A stretch of 64,000 bases of DNA from Porphyromonas cangingivalis. GTDB lineage: Bacteria > Bacteroidota > Bacteroidia > Bacteroidales > Porphyromonadaceae. This document shows, in pieces, positions 13,721-61,372 of the stretch (positions within the stretch are counted from its first letter, which is position 1; each line of letters starts with the position of its first letter). Under the pieces are notes generated by a model. That model saw nothing but the letters and a program-made list of their open reading frames with translations. It did not search any database and had not been told where the DNA came from. The stretch is taken from the NCBI RefSeq assembly GCF_900638305.1, contig NZ_LR134506.1:2232001-2296000 (forward strand), in the 5' to 3' direction. The position numbers were made by a program, and so were the translations under genes.

Positions 13721-15673
13721 TTATTGGTTGTAACGTGCACTCAGTTTGTTGTGAATGAGACGCTTGTTGTAGTCCATGACAATGGCAGGGAGCAGTCGTT
13801 CCGAGACGGTATGATGTATCGTGTCGGGACGAGGGAGTAGGACGGTGTTGAGGCTGTCGACGGAGAGCTTGTTGGTCTCTGTTTCGAAGGTGTAGATCTT
13901 GTCCCATGTGATGAGGTGATGCTCTCCCCAATAGATCACGGCATAAGCCTTGGATAGAGGGTTGAAGATGTTGTGGCCGTATGACACGATCTCATCATCG
14001 ATGCCGAGGAGGTAGAGCAGGGAGGGGTAGATGTCTGCCTGCTGTATGACTTTGTTGGTGTCTATGGCTTCCTTAGGCAGAGGTTTGCCCGGGATATACC
14101 AGAGCTGTGGAATGGCGAAGTTGCCCACTATATTGTCATAGATGGGATCGGCAGACTGCGAGGTGTGGTCGGCGGTGATGACGAAGATGGTCTTGTCGAA
14201 CCACGGCTCTCTCTTTGCTTTCTCAAAAAACATCCTGAGGGCTTCGTCTGAGTATGTTATCGTCGCTTGAAGGGGGACTTCGCCTTGAGGGTACTTGTGT
14301 TCTTCGCCCTTGGGGAGCTTGAATGGTTCGTGGCTTGAGAGGGTGAATATCGTCCCCAGCCATGGTTGTTCAAATCGGCTGATCTGCTCCGGTAGGAAGG
14401 GCACGAACTTCTGATCCCATATCCCCCACGCATTGTCGTAATCGTCATCGTTGTTGTACTCCGTCATGCCGATATAGCCGGTATAGCCCATGTGCTTGGA
14501 GAAGGCATCGAAGCCCATCGAACCGTTCGGTGCACCGTGCATGAAATACGCTGCCTTGTAGCCATGACGACGGAGGCAGGTCCCCATGCCATCGATCTCG
14601 TTGCCCGAATAGTTGCTCGTGACGAAGTTGAGACCAAGAGCCGGTACGCTGGCGATGATCGATGGCATGGCATCGATGGACTTACGACCATTGGCAAAGG
14701 CGTACGGCCAAGATACCGTGGCAGGGTCATTGATCAGAGCGTCAAAGAACGGGGTGTAGCCCTTGCCGTCCTCTTGGAGGGTGCCGATGTGTTCTTTCGC
14801 AAAGCTCTCCAAGATGAGGATCATCACGTTATAGTCCTTGTAAGCCCCATAGAGAGAGTCTGTGGAGGATAAGGGCTGTGCCTTGTAGAGGGCGGAGAAG
14901 AGGCTTTCGGCTTCGGCTGTGGGGATGTATTCGATCTCCTTGAGTACCTTTTTGTCTGCCGTGCGGATCATGCAGAACGGGGTATTGAGCACGATGTCTC
15001 TGTCCTTGACCTGATCGACATAAGCCTGAGCATTGAAGGGAGATAAGGGCCTCACACTATGGATAAGCCCGCCACGGATGCCCACGACGGTCACGAAGAC
15101 GGTCGCAAGGAGTGCCACCGTAGTCCCCAAGATACGTGCCACCACAGGCACGGAGCGTTTTGCGTTATATCTGATGCGCGGATAGGCAAGTATGAGGGCG
15201 ACGATCATCGCAATGGCAACGAGTGTCAGTATGGGGTTCGTCCATGCCAGACGGAGGACAAGGAGGACCGGGTTGTCTCCACCGAATTCCTGAAAGACCG
15301 TCGATGTCATCCTCTTGCGCACGAAAGGGAAGTAGCCGGAGTCGCCGACATTCAGGATGATGCCTGCGATGTTGGGTAAGAGGAAGGACCACTTCATCAC
15401 CTGATAAGACACACGATGGGTACGCACCTTGGGTGAGAAAAATCCGAGTACCATGAAAATAAGCATATACACGCTGTTGAGGTACCCCATGGCCGCAATG
15501 TCAAACCTCTGGCCACCCCACCAAGCCGTCCACAGATCGCTTACAGAGAAGTGCTTGTAGTAGGTGTAGTTGTGTACATAGAAGACGAGCCGACCGAGGT
15601 TGAACATCAACCACGACAGAAAGAGATGGTAAAAGAAGACCAAATACCTGTACTTTGTCTCTATTGCTTTCAT
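13721..15673 (-). CDS. LTA-synthase-like sulfatase-family membrane protein
   Basis: 650 aa. An N-terminal block of about five transmembrane segments (to about residue 200) is followed by an extracytoplasmic alkaline-phosphatase/sulfatase-type domain (about 270-600). Metal-site elements are visible: LESFAKE, the nucleophile region GRKSIDAMPSI (probably Ser) and TADHTS. This is the architecture of LtaS and of phosphoethanolamine or phosphoglycerol transferases. A Gram-negative has no lipoteichoic acid, so the likely substrate is a phospholipid-derived headgroup placed on lipid A, glycan or another envelope polymer (inference). Monocistronic. Confidence 0.82.
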   Translation of the reverse strand: MKAIETKYRYLVFFYHLFLSWLMFNLGRLVFYVHNYTYYKHFSVSDLWTAWWGGQRFDIAAMGYLNSVYMLIFMVLGFFSPKVRTHRVSYQVMKWSFLLPNIAGIILNVGDSGYFPFVRKRMTSTVFQEFGGDNPVLLVLRLAWTNPILTLVAIAMIVALILAYPRIRYNAKRSVPVVARILGTTVALLATVFVTVVGIRGGLIHSVRPLSPFNAQAYVDQVKDRDIVLNTPFCMIRTADKKVLKEIEYIPTAEAESLFSALYKAQPLSSTDSLYGAYKDYNVMILILESFAKEHIGTLQEDGKGYTPFFDALINDPATVSWPYAFANGRKSIDAMPSIIASVPALGLNFVTSNYSGNEIDGMGTCLRRHGYKAAYFMHGAPNGSMGFDAFSKHMGYTGYIGMTEYNNDDDYDNAWGIWDQKFVPFLPEQISRFEQPWLGTIFTLSSHEPFKLPKGEEHKYPQGEVPLQATITYSDEALRMFFEKAKREPWFDKTIFVITADHTSQSADPIYDNIVGNFAIPQLWYIPGKPLPKEAIDTNKVIQQADIYPSLLYLLGIDDEIVSYGHNIFNPLSKAYAVIYWGEHHLITWDKIYTFETETNKLSVDSLNTVLLPRPDTIHHTVSERLLPAIVMDYNKRLIHNKLSARYNQ

Positions 15674-15776
15674 ATCAGTGATAAGTCATAAAAGTGTGAC
15701 ACGGTTTCAGTAAACAGAGGACAAAGGTAATGATTTTAGCTTCAAGGTGGTGACCGATCATAGATAATAGGGCCTA

Positions 15777-15837
15777 TGCAGATTCAAGTATTCTCCAGTC
15801 TATTACCCTAATTTTGCACTTGATACTTGAATCTGCA
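15777..15837 (+). repeat. dispersed promoter-upstream element, copy C
   Basis: A 61-bp element with perfect 15-bp inverted ends TGCAGATTCAAGTAT / ATACTTGAATCTGCA. The interior is shared with 19235-19327 and, inverted, with 59781-59874. Its right end lies 46 nt before the rpsF -7 box. Confidence 0.8.
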
Positions 15838-15883
15838 CCCTGAATTATTTAGAGGATAGGTGGGTTATCCGAGAAAATATTCT

Positions 15884-15891
15884 TATCTTTG
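15884..15891 (+). promoter_or_regulatory. rpsF operon promoter (-7 box)
   Basis: TATCTTTG matches the Bacteroidota -7 consensus TAnnTTTG exactly, 45 nt before the rpsF start. The -33 position is weak. Confidence 0.6.
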
Positions 15892-19119: not shown

Positions 19120-19167
19120 GCTTAAGTTCAGATTGGAAGGTTTTGCACTTCCAATGTGAACTTAAGC
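19120..19167. repeat. stand-alone 20-bp hairpin
   Basis: Arms 19120-19139 and 19148-19167 (outer part GCTTAAGTTCA) pair with one mismatch around an 8-nt loop. No T-run follows, so it is not an ordinary terminator. It sits in the roughly 430-nt gene-free stretch before the tRNA genes. Confidence 0.6.
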
Positions 19168-19234
19168 ATCCCTAAAATGGCAAATTTTGATCTCATCTCT
19201 CAGAAATAAATCAATGAATACTGTGCCAAAATTA

Positions 19235-19327
19235 ACGCAAGACCAAGAGAAAAACTAAACTTTAAGTCCCCGGTTCAAGTATTCTTCAGCTTATTACCCT
19301 AATTTTGCACTTGATACTTGAATCTGC
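19235..19327 (+). repeat. dispersed promoter-upstream element, copy A
   Basis: 93-bp segment from ACGCAAGACC to GATACTTGAATCTGC, nearly identical to the inverted segment at 59781-59874 and sharing its right part with 15777-15837. Its end lies 48 nt before the tRNA promoter's -7 box. Confidence 0.8.
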
Positions 19328-19352
19328 AAGAGAGATTTTTAGAGATAAGCCC

Positions 19353-19383
19353 TTGTGAAAGCAAAATAATTATTTTACCTTTG
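19353..19383 (+). promoter_or_regulatory. tRNA-Gly/tRNA-Leu promoter
   Basis: TTG (19353-19355), a 20-nt spacer, then TACCTTTG (19376-19383), a good Bacteroidota promoter 50 nt before the first tRNA. Confidence 0.7.
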
Positions 19384-53396: not shown

Positions 53397-54462
53397 TCGT
53401 TCGATATAAGAAAACGATGAATGAAACTATCTCATCAACTTTATTAAGTGCCTAATATTGTTGTGGTTATAATTGAAAAAGTGGCGAATTATTTGTATAT
53501 CAGTATCTGAAAACCAAGGTGATACACACAAATAAAACGCCACTTTATGAAGACAAATATAGTTGATATTTTTTGTATGGTAGATGACTTCTCAAAGCTT
53601 TTTGACCAAACAATCAAGGAAAAGAGTATAGAAAAGGATGGTAAAAAGCGTAGAAACAGGAAGTCTAGGATGTCTGACGGTGAGGTAATGACCATCCTTA
53701 TACTCTTTCATCTCTCAAGGTACCGAGATCTCAAGGCTTTTTATCTACAATATATCACCCACTCGTGTCGATCCGAATTTCCTGATCTTGTCTCCTACAA
53801 TCGATTTGTCGAATTGCAAAGTAAAGTGGGATACAAGCTCATCGCATTCCTGAATATGTGCTGTTTAGGCGAATGTACAGGTATCTCTTTTATAGACTCG
53901 ACCCCGCTGAGAGCCTGTCATGTCAAACGGGCTCAAGGACATAAGACAATGAAAGGATTGGCTCGAAAAGGGAAGTGTACCATGGGTTGGTTTTATGGTT
54001 TTAAGTTACACATTGTCATTAACGACAAAGGAGAAATCATCAAATACCGGATCACTCCGGGCAATTGTGATGACAGAGAACCCCTTAAGGACTCGTCTTT
54101 CACCAAGAAGCTTTTCGGCAAACTCATCGGAGATAGAGGATACATTTCCCAAAGTCTTTTTGATCAACTCTTTGTCGATGATATTCATATGATCACAAGA
54201 ATCAAAAAGAACATGAAGAACTCTCTTATGCATCTTTACGACAAAGTGTTACTAAGGAAAAGAGCTCTCATAGAGACCGTCAATGATATGCTCAAAAACG
54301 TCTGTCAGATAGAGCATACCAGACATCGTAGTGTTAACAATTTTCTTGCCAACCTTATCTCAGGACTCATTGCCTACAATCTCCTCCCTAAAAAGCCTGA
54401 ACTGAATATTGAAATCGTTAGAAACCCCCAACTTCCTACTTGCGCTTAAATCGAACTGACGT
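53397..54462 (+). mobile_element. IS982-family insertion sequence
   Basis: The right end is ATCGAACTGACGT at 54450-54462. The left end begins TTCGATATAAGAAAACG at about 53400, missing the first bases of the inverted repeat where IS256 abuts. It contains one intact transposase gene. Confidence 0.72.
53547..54449 (+). CDS. IS982-family transposase
   Basis: 300 aa DDE transposase: MSDGEVMTILILFHLSRYRDLK, SFIDSTPLRACHVKR with the first Asp, GDRGYISQSLFDQLF with the second, RALIETVNDMLKN with the Glu, and a C-terminal SGLIAYNLLPKKP. The length fits the family (ISPg/IS195-like in Porphyromonas). The frame is intact, but the element's left repeat is trimmed, so mobility is doubtful. Confidence 0.9.
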   Translation: MKTNIVDIFCMVDDFSKLFDQTIKEKSIEKDGKKRRNRKSRMSDGEVMTILILFHLSRYRDLKAFYLQYITHSCRSEFPDLVSYNRFVELQSKVGYKLIAFLNMCCLGECTGISFIDSTPLRACHVKRAQGHKTMKGLARKGKCTMGWFYGFKLHIVINDKGEIIKYRITPGNCDDREPLKDSSFTKKLFGKLIGDRGYISQSLFDQLFVDDIHMITRIKKNMKNSLMHLYDKVLLRKRALIETVNDMLKNVCQIEHTRHRSVNNFLANLISGLIAYNLLPKKPELNIEIVRNPQLPTCA

Positions 54463-56293: not shown

Positions 56294-59200
56294 TTAGAAT
56301 GTTAGCTGAATACCCCCAGAAATACTTCTGACTGGAGAGTAACTCCCGACAGTTTCTGTTTCATTGAAAGAAAATCTAGGATCTAGCCCCTTTCGTGCAG
56401 ACCAGAATATCAAATTTTCGCCAGCGGCATATAACCTGATTCCTGTTATCCCCTTAATAATTTTCGACGGTAATGTGTATCCGAGAGTGAATGCTTGAAA
56501 GTTGAGATAACTTGCATTTACTAAGAATCTGTCTGATTCTGCTGCTGTATATTTGTCTCCATATTGCCATCTTGGAATGTTACTGTTTTGATTGTCTGAG
56601 CGCCAAGAACTCAACACATCTTTGTGGATTGCTGAAATAGTTGAGGGTTTTTGGCTTGCAGGGGAGACAAGATTTGCATATTGATAATCATATAGTTTTC
56701 CTCCTATCTGATAGTCAAATTGAAGGCTTGCATCAAATGCACCAATCTTAAGGGTTGTTCCAAAACCACCAAATGCTTTTGGTAAGGTTGAACCATGAGC
56801 ATATCTCGTTGCCAATGTATGGTCTGTAGTAGTTCCTGATTTTTCTTTACCTGGTACATTTATTTTATTGATGATTTTTCCATCGACTTTTTCGTGTAAT
56901 GCTGCATCATAATAGTAAAGAGCTTCTCCTTTTTCATTTACCCCTGCATAAGCATAAGTCATGCGATTATATAGCTCTCCACCAACTTCGAACCAATTAC
57001 GATCTTCATAAAATCCCCCCAAAAGCTTCGTCTTAGACTCTGGTAAAGAAAGAATCTTTGTGCGATTATGTGCGATGTTAAAGTTTATATTCCAGTCAAT
57101 TAGACTTGTTTTAATAATTGCTCCATTAAGTGATAGCTCAACACCGGTATTACGAATATCTCCAATATTATCCCAAAGTCCGCGTACTCCTCCGGATTCT
57201 GGCAAAGAACTCCAAAATAAAAGATTTGAAGTCTTTTTTGTGTATAAGTCTAAAGCTCCACTCAAACGACTATTAAAAAATGAGAACTCAGCACCTACGT
57301 TGACATTTGTTGCAGTTTCCCAAGTTATATTTGGGTTTCCGAGATTGCTAAAGCTTGGAGCCATATCCTTTTCTGTAGCAGGGTTAAGTCTATAAAGATC
57401 TACAAAGGCAAAATCTCCAATGTTATCATTCCCTTGTTGACCTATAGATGCTTTGAGTTTCAAAATATCAATCCATTTTGCACTTGACATGAAGTCCTCT
57501 TTGGAGATAATCCATCCCCCTCCCAATGACCAAAAGTTCCCCCATCTGTGATTTTTATGGAATCTAGAAGAGGCATCTCGACGAAACGACATCGATGCAA
57601 AATACTTTCCGCTGAAATCATATTGTAAATTGAAGAAAAAGCCTTCAACATTATATCTGCTCAGATTAGAACCGTTGCTGGCTTTCTTTGCAAACGCATC
57701 TAATTCTTGTATCTCTGGAGAAAATCCTCCTTGTCCGACTCCCTGCAATTTCCTCCTTTCTGTTCTATAGTATTCATGTCCAAGAAGGGCTTTTAGGTTA
57801 TGGGAGCCGAAACTTTTATCAAAGTTTAGAGTTTGTACGTGATTTTGTCTAATATTCTCAAGTGTGGATTTCTCAAGTTGGCCATTTATACCTGCCCTGG
57901 GACCAAAAAACGGATTGTCATAATGTGAAAATAAAGTATTCCCCCAAATAACAGTACTAGTTGCGTTAAGAGATAGGTAGTCTGTTATTGTCAATAATAT
58001 ATTTCCATTAGCATTGAGTTGACTACTTCGAGTTGTTGTATTGTTGTATCTATTTGCACCAAGTGGGTTTCCTGGAGCTCCAAAAGGTCTCTGTCCTAAT
58101 CCCTTATATTCCAATCCAAAATCATATAAAGGATTCCCATTTATGTCTTTCAGAATAATGGGTTTGCCATCTGCCCCTATCGTACGAACATATAGTGGAT
58201 ATATAGAGGGAATTGAAGAGGTGAAATATAAAACATTTGTGGCCCCCAATGAATCATCAAGATTTGGATTTGACTTTGTCGTTGAGTGATTATATGCAAT
58301 ATTTGCACCAATTTTTAGCCATTTCCTTGCGTGATAATCTGCTCTTAATCTCGTTGTCAACCTTTCGTATCCTGAAAATTGTAAGACACCATTATCATTA
58401 AGATAGCCTACACTTGCGTAAAATGTATTTTTTGAGGATCCTCCACTTAAACTTACATTGTATTCTTGTCGAAGGGCTGGGCCATAAGCTTCCCTGCTCC
58501 AATCATCAGGTGTTAAATAATAAGTTTGACCTTCATGAGTATAAGTCCTTCCCAACGTGGCTTTAGGGTTGAGTTTACCATCTAATCCTATGAGGTTTTC
58601 ACCCTCTGGTAGTTCATAAACATTATATTTCAGAAACTCGATAAGCTTTTTGTTTGCCCAAGAATTCGCTTTTTCCGGTTTGTCGAAGATTAGATTACCT
58701 TGTTGATTTCGGTATGTAGATGCAAAGTTATATAGTTGAGCATAATAGGTTTCATAAAAAAGCCCTGGGTCTTCAATCTTATCATATTCTTGAATGGCTC
58801 TAGTATTGACACCCCATTTTGCATCTATGTTAATTATCGCATCTTTAGCAGATCCTGATTTCGTAGTGACAAGAATAACTCCCGATGCTCCTCGTGCTCC
58901 ATAGAGTGCGGCAGACGAAGCATCTTTAAGGACTGTTACGGATTCTATATCACCCTGAGGGATATTCGATAAACTTGAAGAATAAGGTGCTCCGTCGACA
59001 ATAATAAGAGGAGAACTGCCTGCGTATAACGTACTAATTCCTCTAATATTCATCGATCCACCCGCTGATCCCGGAGCTCCTGTTCCTCCCCTCATTTGCA
59101 ACCCTGGGATTTTACCAACGAGGGCATTCGCAACATTGGTTGTAACATGGTTGGCGAGATCTTTTGAACTTACTACTGCTGCAGAACCCGTGAATGATGC

Positions 59201-59542
59201 TTTCTTTTGAGAGCCAAATGCCACAACCATGACTTCATCAAGTTGTTCAGAGTCAGGGTGTAGTTTGATTATTAGGCCCTTTCCAATTGTGACTTCCTGA
59301 GTCCTCATCCCTACGAAAGAGACGACGATGATCTTTTCGTTGGCAGGGACTGTGAATTTGAATTTACCATCAATGTTGGTGCGGTCACCCTTCTTTGATG
59401 TCTTACCTCTAACGGTAGCTCCTATGATGGGCTGGTTATCCTCGGCAGAGATGACAGTACCAGATACTTCGACCTGAGACTGTGCCAATACCATACCCAT
59501 GCTCATCATGAGGAAAGCAAAAAGTAATGTAATTCTTTTCAT
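56294..59542 (-). CDS. SusC/RagA-family TonB-linked outer-membrane protein 1
   Basis: 1082 aa. Signal peptide (cleavage near VLAQ, residue 20), CarboxypepD_reg-like domain (about 24-98), the SusC signature VMVVAFGSQKKASFTGS, a TonB plug with SAALYGARGASGVILVTTKSG (about 210-230) and a barrel ending ISGGIQLTF. Full length. With the SusD partner it imports a macromolecule-derived ligand by a pedal-bin mechanism driven by TonB. It lies between direct IS256 copies, so the locus could be mobile. Confidence 0.94.
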   Translation of the reverse strand: MKRITLLFAFLMMSMGMVLAQSQVEVSGTVISAEDNQPIIGATVRGKTSKKGDRTNIDGKFKFTVPANEKIIVVSFVGMRTQEVTIGKGLIIKLHPDSEQLDEVMVVAFGSQKKASFTGSAAVVSSKDLANHVTTNVANALVGKIPGLQMRGGTGAPGSAGGSMNIRGISTLYAGSSPLIIVDGAPYSSSLSNIPQGDIESVTVLKDASSAALYGARGASGVILVTTKSGSAKDAIINIDAKWGVNTRAIQEYDKIEDPGLFYETYYAQLYNFASTYRNQQGNLIFDKPEKANSWANKKLIEFLKYNVYELPEGENLIGLDGKLNPKATLGRTYTHEGQTYYLTPDDWSREAYGPALRQEYNVSLSGGSSKNTFYASVGYLNDNGVLQFSGYERLTTRLRADYHARKWLKIGANIAYNHSTTKSNPNLDDSLGATNVLYFTSSIPSIYPLYVRTIGADGKPIILKDINGNPLYDFGLEYKGLGQRPFGAPGNPLGANRYNNTTTRSSQLNANGNILLTITDYLSLNATSTVIWGNTLFSHYDNPFFGPRAGINGQLEKSTLENIRQNHVQTLNFDKSFGSHNLKALLGHEYYRTERRKLQGVGQGGFSPEIQELDAFAKKASNGSNLSRYNVEGFFFNLQYDFSGKYFASMSFRRDASSRFHKNHRWGNFWSLGGGWIISKEDFMSSAKWIDILKLKASIGQQGNDNIGDFAFVDLYRLNPATEKDMAPSFSNLGNPNITWETATNVNVGAEFSFFNSRLSGALDLYTKKTSNLLFWSSLPESGGVRGLWDNIGDIRNTGVELSLNGAIIKTSLIDWNINFNIAHNRTKILSLPESKTKLLGGFYEDRNWFEVGGELYNRMTYAYAGVNEKGEALYYYDAALHEKVDGKIINKINVPGKEKSGTTTDHTLATRYAHGSTLPKAFGGFGTTLKIGAFDASLQFDYQIGGKLYDYQYANLVSPASQKPSTISAIHKDVLSSWRSDNQNSNIPRWQYGDKYTAAESDRFLVNASYLNFQAFTLGYTLPSKIIKGITGIRLYAAGENLIFWSARKGLDPRFSFNETETVGSYSPVRSISGGIQLTF

Positions 59543-59724: not shown

Positions 59725-59756
59725 CAAATAAACGTTTATTCTCTCAATAAAACAAC
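59725..59756 (-). promoter_or_regulatory. susCD locus 1 promoter
   Basis: Minus-strand GTTG (59756-59753), 20-nt spacer, TTTATTTG (59732-59725), one base off the -7 consensus. It lies about 180 nt upstream of susC, with the dispersed element 48 nt further up. Confidence 0.5.
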
Positions 59757-59780
59757 TTTTTTAATGGATATTTTGTGTTT

Positions 59781-59874
59781 GCAGATTCAAGTATCAAGTA
59801 CAAAATTAGGGCAATAGGCTGAAGAATACTTGAAGCGGGGACTTAAAGTTTAGTTTTTCTCTTGATCTTGCGCA
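59781..59874 (-). repeat. dispersed promoter-upstream element, copy B
   Basis: Reverse complement matches 19235-19327 over about 93 bp with only a few differences, from CGCAAGATCAAGAG to GATACTTGAATCTGC. It points at susC in the same relative orientation as copies A and C point at their genes. Confidence 0.8.
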
Positions 59875-60046: not shown

Positions 60047-61372
60047 TAGTGTCCGAAAAAGTGTGTAAGGTTAGTTCTCCCTTTTTCCCTGGGGCATGCC
60101 CCAGGGAAAAAAACTTTGAGTTTTTCCTGTTATTACTCATTACTCATTTATTTGGTGCTCCACTCTTGGAAATAGGGTAACCTCCTTGCGTAAGTCTTTT
60201 CGGTCATTTCTCGGGCTACAGAGCCCAAGAGAAAGACAACGGCATCTGCCGAGGGTAGAGCCCCACGCATACGCAGCGTACGCTTATAGCTCCGATTGAG
60301 ACGCTCCACCCAATTCGTCGAGTAAATCATACGACGAACACCCTCCGGGAACATCAGGTAAGTGAAGTAGTTTATATTGCGAGATGCCGAAAAGGAGAGC
60401 AGGCTCCGGTAGCTTTTCCCCCAACGCTCTGCAAATGTACATAATTTCTCAAATGCCTTTATGGGAGTAAGACCTGTATCCGGAACAGGGAATAAGTCAT
60501 CCACCTCCTGCTTCATCTGAGTTTTATCCCTCTTTGACACGGCGTTAAGTGCTTGTCGTTTGAAATGAACAACACATAACTGATGAGCTGCCTGGGGGAA
60601 AGCCGAGGCGATGGCTCGTTCAATCCCCTGTAAAGCATCTGAGATGATCAGGTCTATACGTTCGACTCCACGTGTTTTGAGGGCTTTCAACTCTGCCTCC
60701 CAATTCAACGCTCCTTCCGTGGGATGATTCACCACACAAAGCACCTCCCGACTACCGTCAGGAAGCAACCCCAACATCGTGTAATAGGCTTCCTGAGCCA
60801 CACGATCCTCCCGCCGTGTGTAGGCAAAGGTAGCATCGATGTACACGGCCAAATAGTGGGGCGACAGTTGGCGTTCCAACCACTTGTAGATCTCCTCTTT
60901 ACTCGTGTTGGTGAGAAAACTGACTTGCTGCTTGCTATAGTGATAGCCGTAGATCCGTTCGCACACCGAACCAATGTCTTCGCACGAAAGCCCTCGGGTA
61001 TAAAGCTCGTGAAACAACAAGGCTCGTTCGCTCTCTTGGCCGGAAAGGATTCCCAAAATCAGGGGTTGGAAATTGCCCGAACGTGTTCGAGGAATCCGTA
61101 ATTCAAAGCTACAGCCGTAGCCTCGCCATCGACGAGGACGGAAGCCATTGCACTGTTCACCCTCATGCTCTTCGACAAAGAGAGCACGTTCTTGCTTCGA
61201 GAAGGTGTCCAATAGTACACGGATAAGTTCGTTAATACCCGCCTCTGATGATAGCATTTCAGAAATAAATGCCGACTTTTGTGTTGTTGTAAGCTCCATT
61301 GTTCTTAGGTTTATTTTTTTCTTACCTCAAAGTTAAGGACTAATGGGGCTTACACACTTTTTTAGGACAGTA
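60047..61372 (-). mobile_element. IS256-family insertion sequence, copy 2
   Basis: Same ends as copy 1: TAGTGTCCGAAAAAGTGTG on the left, CACTTTTTTAGGACAGTA on the right, about 1.33 kb. Same orientation as copy 1. It is flanked by IS982 sequence on the left and IS5 sequence on the right. Confidence 0.8.
60148..61299 (-). CDS. IS256/Mutator-family transposase, copy 2
   Basis: 383 aa, intact, with the same DDE motifs as copy 1 (YIDATF, LIISDALQGIERAI, STNWVERLNRSYK). Residues 1 to about 240 differ from copy 1 at only a handful of positions. From about 241 (PQAAHQL instead of PHSSHQL) to the C-terminus (EWSTK instead of EWKIK) changes are frequent, a mosaic pattern. Confidence 0.92.
   Translation of the reverse strand: MELTTTQKSAFISEMLSSEAGINELIRVLLDTFSKQERALFVEEHEGEQCNGFRPRRWRGYGCSFELRIPRTRSGNFQPLILGILSGQESERALLFHELYTRGLSCEDIGSVCERIYGYHYSKQQVSFLTNTSKEEIYKWLERQLSPHYLAVYIDATFAYTRREDRVAQEAYYTMLGLLPDGSREVLCVVNHPTEGALNWEAELKALKTRGVERIDLIISDALQGIERAIASAFPQAAHQLCVVHFKRQALNAVSKRDKTQMKQEVDDLFPVPDTGLTPIKAFEKLCTFAERWGKSYRSLLSFSASRNINYFTYLMFPEGVRRMIYSTNWVERLNRSYKRTLRMRGALPSADAVVFLLGSVAREMTEKTYARRLPYFQEWSTK

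Follow-up and report, generated by a model that had tools for sequence, protein, structure and literature searches.

Three copies of one dispersed element lie at a near-constant distance from predicted promoters in the window, the whole 64,000-nucleotide stretch of Porphyromonas cangingivalis DNA analyzed here. This fixed spacing very probably reflects the insertion-site preference of IS30-family insertion sequences (IS), which would land in a set orientation ~47 bp upstream of predicted -7 boxes. Under the proposed mechanism, an IS30 transposase carrying joined IS ends would place the right end on the promoter side of the insertion, ~47 bp ahead of the -7 box and, where a -33 TTG is seen, ~24 bp upstream of that TTG. 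The targets would be primary-sigma promoters of the Bacteroidota type, as called by consensus; the promoter would be left intact, so that the IS could persist beside housekeeping genes, and a related IS30 lineage would insert 37–38 bp away, one DNA turn closer. From sequence, we infer that the boxes are working promoters, and the IS seems to land beside genes without breaking them.

The element and its copies in the window

The element belongs to an IS30-family IS, of which it is the right end, comprising the last transposase codons, the stop codon, and the right inverted repeat. Seven copies of this right end occur in the organism's own genome (2.4 Mb, one contig). One of the four outside the window, L003, is an apparently complete copy of 1,144 bp with an intact 314-aa transposase frame, which scores 263.7 bits against the NCBIfam IS30 profile NF033563 (cutoff 80) and contains HTH_38 and rve domains. 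Its left end, CTTAAGTTCACATTGGAAGTGCAAAA, lies ~170 bp before the transposase start codon; the right end is TTTTGCACTTGATACTTGAATCTGCA, and TTCA and AAGTGCAAAA are common to both ends at matching positions. IS30-family elements carry a single transposase ORF of ~300–380 aa and produce target duplications of 2–3 bp; L003 likewise has a single transposase ORF between terminal inverted repeats. Clear target duplications of 3 bp were read by eye at only three full copies, L003 (GTC), L245 (TTG), and L203 (ATA), and one with a mismatch at the C54 copy of genome G007; none was seen by eye in L106, L224, L263, L021, or L196. The genome contains a further IS30 element, L021, at another site; its transposase is 42% identical and scores 241.5 bits against NF033563 (cutoff 80). 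The best profiles for L003, L021, and L263 are IS30, rve, and HTH_38, and no Mutator or IS256 profile was found for any of them at E 0.001 (L263 against Pfam only).

Among the remaining copies outside the window, L008 has an exact box at 47 bp and L002 a one-mismatch box at 46 bp; neither L001 nor the full copy L003 has a box near 46–48 bp. L016 and L018 were rejected as chance short matches. Detached left-end hairpins were also observed, one inverted beside the second window copy and two in L020 (near 1333 and 1996), where the pair flanks a transposase fragment truncated after 164 codons.

The first-pass annotation had described a shared end, ATACTTGAATCTGC, facing the gene at three loci, and it is present at all three, here copies A, B, and C. 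Counted from the final base of TGCA up to the -7 box, the gaps it gave as 46, 48, and 48 bp stand at 46 bp for copy A and were re-measured as 47 bp for B and C. Copy A (15777..15837, forward strand) spans 61 bp and is an IS30 remnant made up of two inverted right-end tips, and its right part is a homolog of the IS right end; perfect 15-bp inverted ends, earlier assigned to copy C, belong to copy A, and the other arm in C has 3 mismatches. An outward TAATTTTG box lies inside the right end of copy A (15809..15816, forward), 28 bp before the TGC end. The -7 box of the rpsF operon promoter, TATCTTTG (15884..15891, forward), stands 46 bp from the copy A end in a region conserved in the element-free G007. 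The first-pass annotation lacks a box on the opposite side of copy A, TACCTTTG (15722..15729, reverse), which lies 47 bp from that end and faces a divergent sulfatase-family gene (13721–15673, PF00884). Judging from these features, copy A more likely arose when two insertions of opposite orientation, both in a divergent promoter region, became joined at a shared TTCAAGTAT; no target duplication is visible around it. A simple internal deletion of one IS was rejected as its origin, as the left tip matches the right-end repeat and not the left end.

Copy B (19167..19328, forward) is an IS30 3' fragment retaining transposase codons ~271–314, with one internal stop, and the right inverted repeat; a palindrome matching the IS left-end hairpin (CTTAAGTTCACATTGGAAG; 19121..19166) abuts it directly. 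The tRNA-Gly/tRNA-Leu unit has its -7 box, TACCTTTG (19376..19383, forward), 47 bp from the copy B end. A TTG had been placed 25 bp from both A and B; one is found 24 bp from the IS end at B (19353..19355, forward), in the -33 place, and none 20–26 bp before the -7 box at A. Copy C, also an IS30 3' fragment (59780..59874, reverse), has its right end toward susC (56294–59542), with the near-consensus -7 box TTTATTTG (59725..59732, reverse; one mismatch) 47 bp away. The likeness of A and C through the promoter did not reappear; the 100 bp that follow the element show no match longer than a 7-bp word. TAnnTTTG occurs at only 0.47 per kb per strand in the window, so the spacing at A, B, and C is not due to chance. 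Gene names in the window checked against Pfam are rpsF, the sulfatase, and susC only.

Because the element is the 3' end of the IS30 transposase gene together with the right inverted repeat, the shared regulator site proposed earlier finds no support as a cause of the spacing; a stand-alone regulator operator was ruled out once the end had been traced to that gene. The MITE-like origin suggested for the element was correct as to mobility and incorrect as to class, since the element is an IS30 right end. A stand-alone MITE was also rejected, copies B and C being one-sided truncations with transposase codons; genome searches found no second 61-bp copy like A, and only A has two tips. Rfam at gathering thresholds returned only a 16S rRNA and two tRNAs in the window, and a structured RNA was rejected on this basis; an upstream structure acting on transcription, as the first-pass annotation had also proposed, is unsupported as a cause of the spacing.

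Other features were seen elsewhere in the window. A second, unrelated transposase-like gene lies beside susD (53547–54449), and a near-identical copy of it, split into two frames, adjoins the full IS30 copy (L003 426–1328). A perfect 15-bp inverted repeat with no spacer, TTTTTCCCTGGGGCA (60082–60111), adjoins a 383-aa frame (60148–61299), which by eye we take to be a Mutator/IS256 transposase.

Spacing and orientation across the family

A search of 38 genomes of the bacterial family, sampled at one genome per species, with the 23-bp right end and up to 3 mismatches returned 104 places in 22 genomes; the reversed control pattern gave 0 matches. All 104 flanks were examined (two are short, L105 with 1 bp and L068 with 57 bp), six ends with flanks >80% alike were dropped, and the 130 bp adjoining each of the 98 distinct ends were scored for TAnnTTTG directed away from the IS. 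The box stands at 46–48 bp in 44 of the 98 ends, distributed over 15 genomes, with 13 ends at 46 bp, 23 at 47 bp, and 8 at 48 bp. Other distances comprise eight at 37–38 bp, three at 32–33 bp, four at 45, 49, or 50 bp, and seven further occurrences scattered from 3 to 115 bp. Where at least 75 bp of flank is available (96 ends), 43 boxes at 46–48 bp were observed versus 0.27 expected from the remaining flank (binomial p 1e-82); 200 dinucleotide shuffles of these 96 ends gave a mean of 0.225 and a maximum of 2 at these positions, and five control motifs gave 0–1. The first-pass annotation had argued from three loci that chance insertion could not fix orientation and spacing, and had named many copies at random orientation and distance as the outcome that would speak against a fixed arrangement; the counts across the family genomes bear out the argument and are the opposite of that outcome.

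A box at 30–50 bp was found in 58 of the 98 ends. The 40 ends that lack an exact box at these distances include the apparently complete L003. In nine of the 40, a box with one mismatch stands at 46–48 bp; the remainder inserted elsewhere, are degraded, or may be chance matches at 3 mismatches. The share of ends at 46–48 bp varies by genome (G025, 8/10; G014, 8/14; G033, 2/12; G027, 0/5). Outside the family, none of 27 right ends of Bacteroidales relatives, gathered with one end pattern, has a box at 46–48 bp, so the behavior is shown here for the family and not for IS30 elements at large; a Prevotellaceae-type end matched in 5 of 393 genomes of the order, too few for extension.

The preference also appears to be oriented. 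The left end diverges fast, and a strict left-end pattern matched in only 2 of the 38 genomes; looser patterns gathered 17 left ends in the family, or 16 once the inverted hairpin beside copy B was omitted. A facing box at 46–48 bp occurs in 1 of these 16 left ends versus 43 of 96 right ends (p 0.004, with a small and loosely collected left sample). The sole left end facing a box, at 47 bp, belongs to L021, which has boxes at 47 bp on both sides and, like copy A, lies between divergent promoters.

Targeted promoters are often those of housekeeping genes. A tRNA finder run on 60 loci identified a tRNA gene just behind the box in seven (L006, L202, L217, L224, L230, L237, and L204, the last with its box at 33 bp). 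By eye, we take the frames behind other boxes to be rpsF, trigger factor, pnp, mutS, glutamate racemase, ribosomal proteins L21 and S21, an HU-like protein, and EF-Tu behind tRNA-Thr; the remaining frames are presumably membrane, hypothetical, or mobile-element proteins, again by eye. Two promoters, of genes that by eye we take to be thrS-like (L222, L273) and trpS-like (L219, L274), were each reached by different IS ends in two genera.

The abundance of housekeeping promoters, where disruption is costly, and of copies that are fragments, as if the end had been retained, would fit random insertion followed by selection for right ends that help or spare transcription at this distance. We nevertheless regard this account as highly improbable. 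Selection for sparing the promoter would permit any larger distance and not a 3-bp interval, and only one box at 51–75 bp was found in the 98 ends; nor does such selection account for a second ruler, and a different IS lineage has a distance of its own. Additionally, the copies in G025, probably young because their right ends do not differ across the stretch compared, show the pattern in eight of ten cases. From the tolerance of larger distances under selection, and from the second ruler, we infer that the preference acts at insertion and not by later selection.

Host promoters, internal boxes, and the ruler

The rpsF and tRNA promoters preceded the element. G007, the closest relative compared (94% identity for rpsF, 97% for the tRNA), has both promoters without the element at the loci of copies A and B, to which the comparison applies: the rpsF promoter region differs ahead of its box by one gap and few substitutions, and the tRNA-Gly/Leu promoter keeps 21 of the 24 bases that precede its box. 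Similarity fades toward the element end and is clear from ~15 bases (A) or ~20 bases (B) outside it. The presence of these promoters in G007 argues against a cassette that brought its promoter along, and the mobile promoter cassette of the first-pass annotation thus lacks support as a cause of the spacing, the boxes at A and B being host promoters.

A part of that idea does survive, in that 56 of 93 IS right ends carry a TAnnTTTG box of their own, directed outward and located 28 or 39 bp inward of the terminus (since copies within a lineage are not independent, this is not a count of 56 events); the internal box keeps TA and TTTG across lineages, with the middle bases varying between them. A right end that acted as a mobile promoter or as an activating element upstream, with the host box secondary, would fit this conservation and the tandem arrays in which another IS end lies 47 bp (L262) or 37 bp (L210) before the internal box. 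However, such a reading leaves the spacing to host boxes unexplained; the host boxes exist without the IS in G007, the internal box is missing from L263 (37-bp lineage), L105, and L272, and no matching -33 element has been demonstrated. We consider it improbable. The internal box may instead serve the transposase gene across the circle junction, by analogy with the junction promoter described at the IS30 circle junction (PMC9333248).

Insertion guided by the host promoter remains the preferred reading, and the anatomy of the targets suggests which part of the promoter sets the distance. Among the 44 ends with a box at 46–48 bp, a TTG 20–26 bp before the box is present in 22 and absent from the other 22; in 16 of the former it lies 23–24 bp from the IS end, in the -33 place. 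At spacers of 22, 23, and 24 bp (6, 15, and 2 ends), the mean -7 distance is 46.7, 47.1, and 47.0 bp, and the TTG shifts to 24.7, 24.1, and 23.0 bp from the IS end. Since the -7 distance holds steady while the TTG moves, the ruler seems to be anchored at the -7 sequence, as judged from only 6, 15, and 2 ends.

A second distance was recovered from the GATAG lineage, whose end, TTGCATTTGATAGTTGAATCTACG, was searched separately in the 38 family genomes and matched in six, G010 only through the other lineage's end. Among its 15 distinct ends with flank, seven have the box at 37–38 bp and none at 46–48 bp; others have it at 27 bp (two), at 35 bp (one), or at 32 and 40 bp (one), and four have no box within 60 bp. 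The difference from the rest of the ends (4 at 37–38 bp, 44 at 46–48 bp) gives a Fisher p of 1.6e-6, with L219, which shows both distances, counted twice. The 10-bp step between the 47- and 37-bp rulers is one DNA turn.

Several observations concern other distances and clades. L259 and L292 appear to involve the same promoter in two species, with a 37-bp-lineage end at 37 bp in one and at 27 bp in the other. Of nine Alloprevotella-type IS30 ends (TTGACTCTAC), four have TAnnTTTG (L058, 68 bp; L066, 69 bp; L069, 67 bp; L088, 63 bp), possibly a third ruler two turns beyond 47 bp. In five genomes of Prevotellaceae and Bacteroidaceae relatives (L034, L039, L048, L057, L071), a gap of exactly 11 bp separates the IS30 right end from AAAGTTAAA, which resembles a -7 box directed toward the IS, and four of the five share CTTTTCTACCGTTT at 68–69 bp; by sequence, this appears to be a different recurrent target of that clade.

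How the transposase reads the promoter is a matter of closer judgment. It might recognize a bare DNA sequence coinciding with the -33/-7 promoter, independently of RNA polymerase, and we hold this to be a substantial possibility, though a little short of even: the ruler seems -7-anchored, and E. coli IS30 is described as picking sequence hot spots (PMC9333248). However, a factor bound at -7 would anchor the distance equally well. Only the bases recognized by sigma are common to the targets, and at the cut site the 96 ends share no motif, only A/T richness 8–11 bp outside it. Our guess, leaning only slightly to one side, is that bound RNA polymerase or sigma, rather than bare DNA, is what the transposase reads at the promoter. 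A fuller scenario, to which we give not quite an even chance, is that Porphyromonas-like IS30 elements independently evolved promoter-guided transposition through promoter-bound RNA polymerase, with a helical ruler of 47 or 37 bp to the -7 box and the right end docked geneward. A right end bearing its own box would then be a landing site that seeds tandem arrays, and further Bacteroidales IS30 clades may have other rulers (67–69 bp, Alloprevotella-type).

Relation to known elements and implications

Outward promoters in IS4351 and other elements of Bacteroides drive neighboring genes. The element described here resembles IS4351 in the outward box at the IS end; it differs in that the downstream gene keeps its own promoter, and the spacing can be explained without the IS box.

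Targeting of promoters has been documented for the Mutator-like elements TnGBS and ISLre2 (PMC3942029), and in that study the targeting of promoter-upstream sites is called unusual among prokaryotic transposases and reported for two Mutator-like groups. TnGBS and the related p-MULT 3 insert 15–17 bp upstream of the -35 of sigma-A promoters, with the right inverted repeat of p-MULT 3 next to the promoter, an orientation ascribed to unequal repeats; in p-MULT 4 (13 elements), the repeats are near-perfect and promoters occur on both sides, and the ISKra4 lineage has a comparable but weaker signal, likewise on both sides (PMC3942029). The present IS shares with TnGBS, ISLre2, and ISKra4 a fixed distance upstream of a primary-sigma promoter (here called by consensus), and with p-MULT 3 an oriented insertion with the right end on the promoter side and unequal repeats. 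Unlike TnGBS, its transposase does not belong to the Mutator superfamily or p-MULT by profile, it lies ~24 bp upstream of the -33 TTG and 47 bp from -7, its promoters are those of Bacteroidota, and two lineage-specific rulers stand about one turn apart.

Within the IS30 family, E. coli IS30 inserts either into hot spots that are close to palindromic or into its own ends, generating 2-bp duplications (PMC9333248), and ISApl1 sites lie mostly in AT-rich regions, also with a 2-bp duplication (PMC10916398). The IS described here agrees with the family in its transposase profile, its short imperfect terminal repeats, and the tandem copies next to its ends; it differs from both E. coli IS30 and ISApl1 in targeting a promoter at a fixed distance and in its clear duplications of 3 bp. 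A 2022 survey found IS30 over-represented in one gene orientation, and the available text of that survey does not mention fixed spacing (PMC9208149). No report of promoter-targeting IS30 elements was found in open-license PubMed Central papers, the literature searched.

The right ends of these IS could mark promoters in poorly annotated genomes, and the transposase is possibly a means of placing cargo ahead of active promoters without gene knockout. Two lineages with rulers one helical turn apart offer a ready comparison for how a transposase senses a promoter. If true, the targeting of promoters in Bacteroidota by a separate DDE family would represent convergent evolution of a safe-landing strategy.
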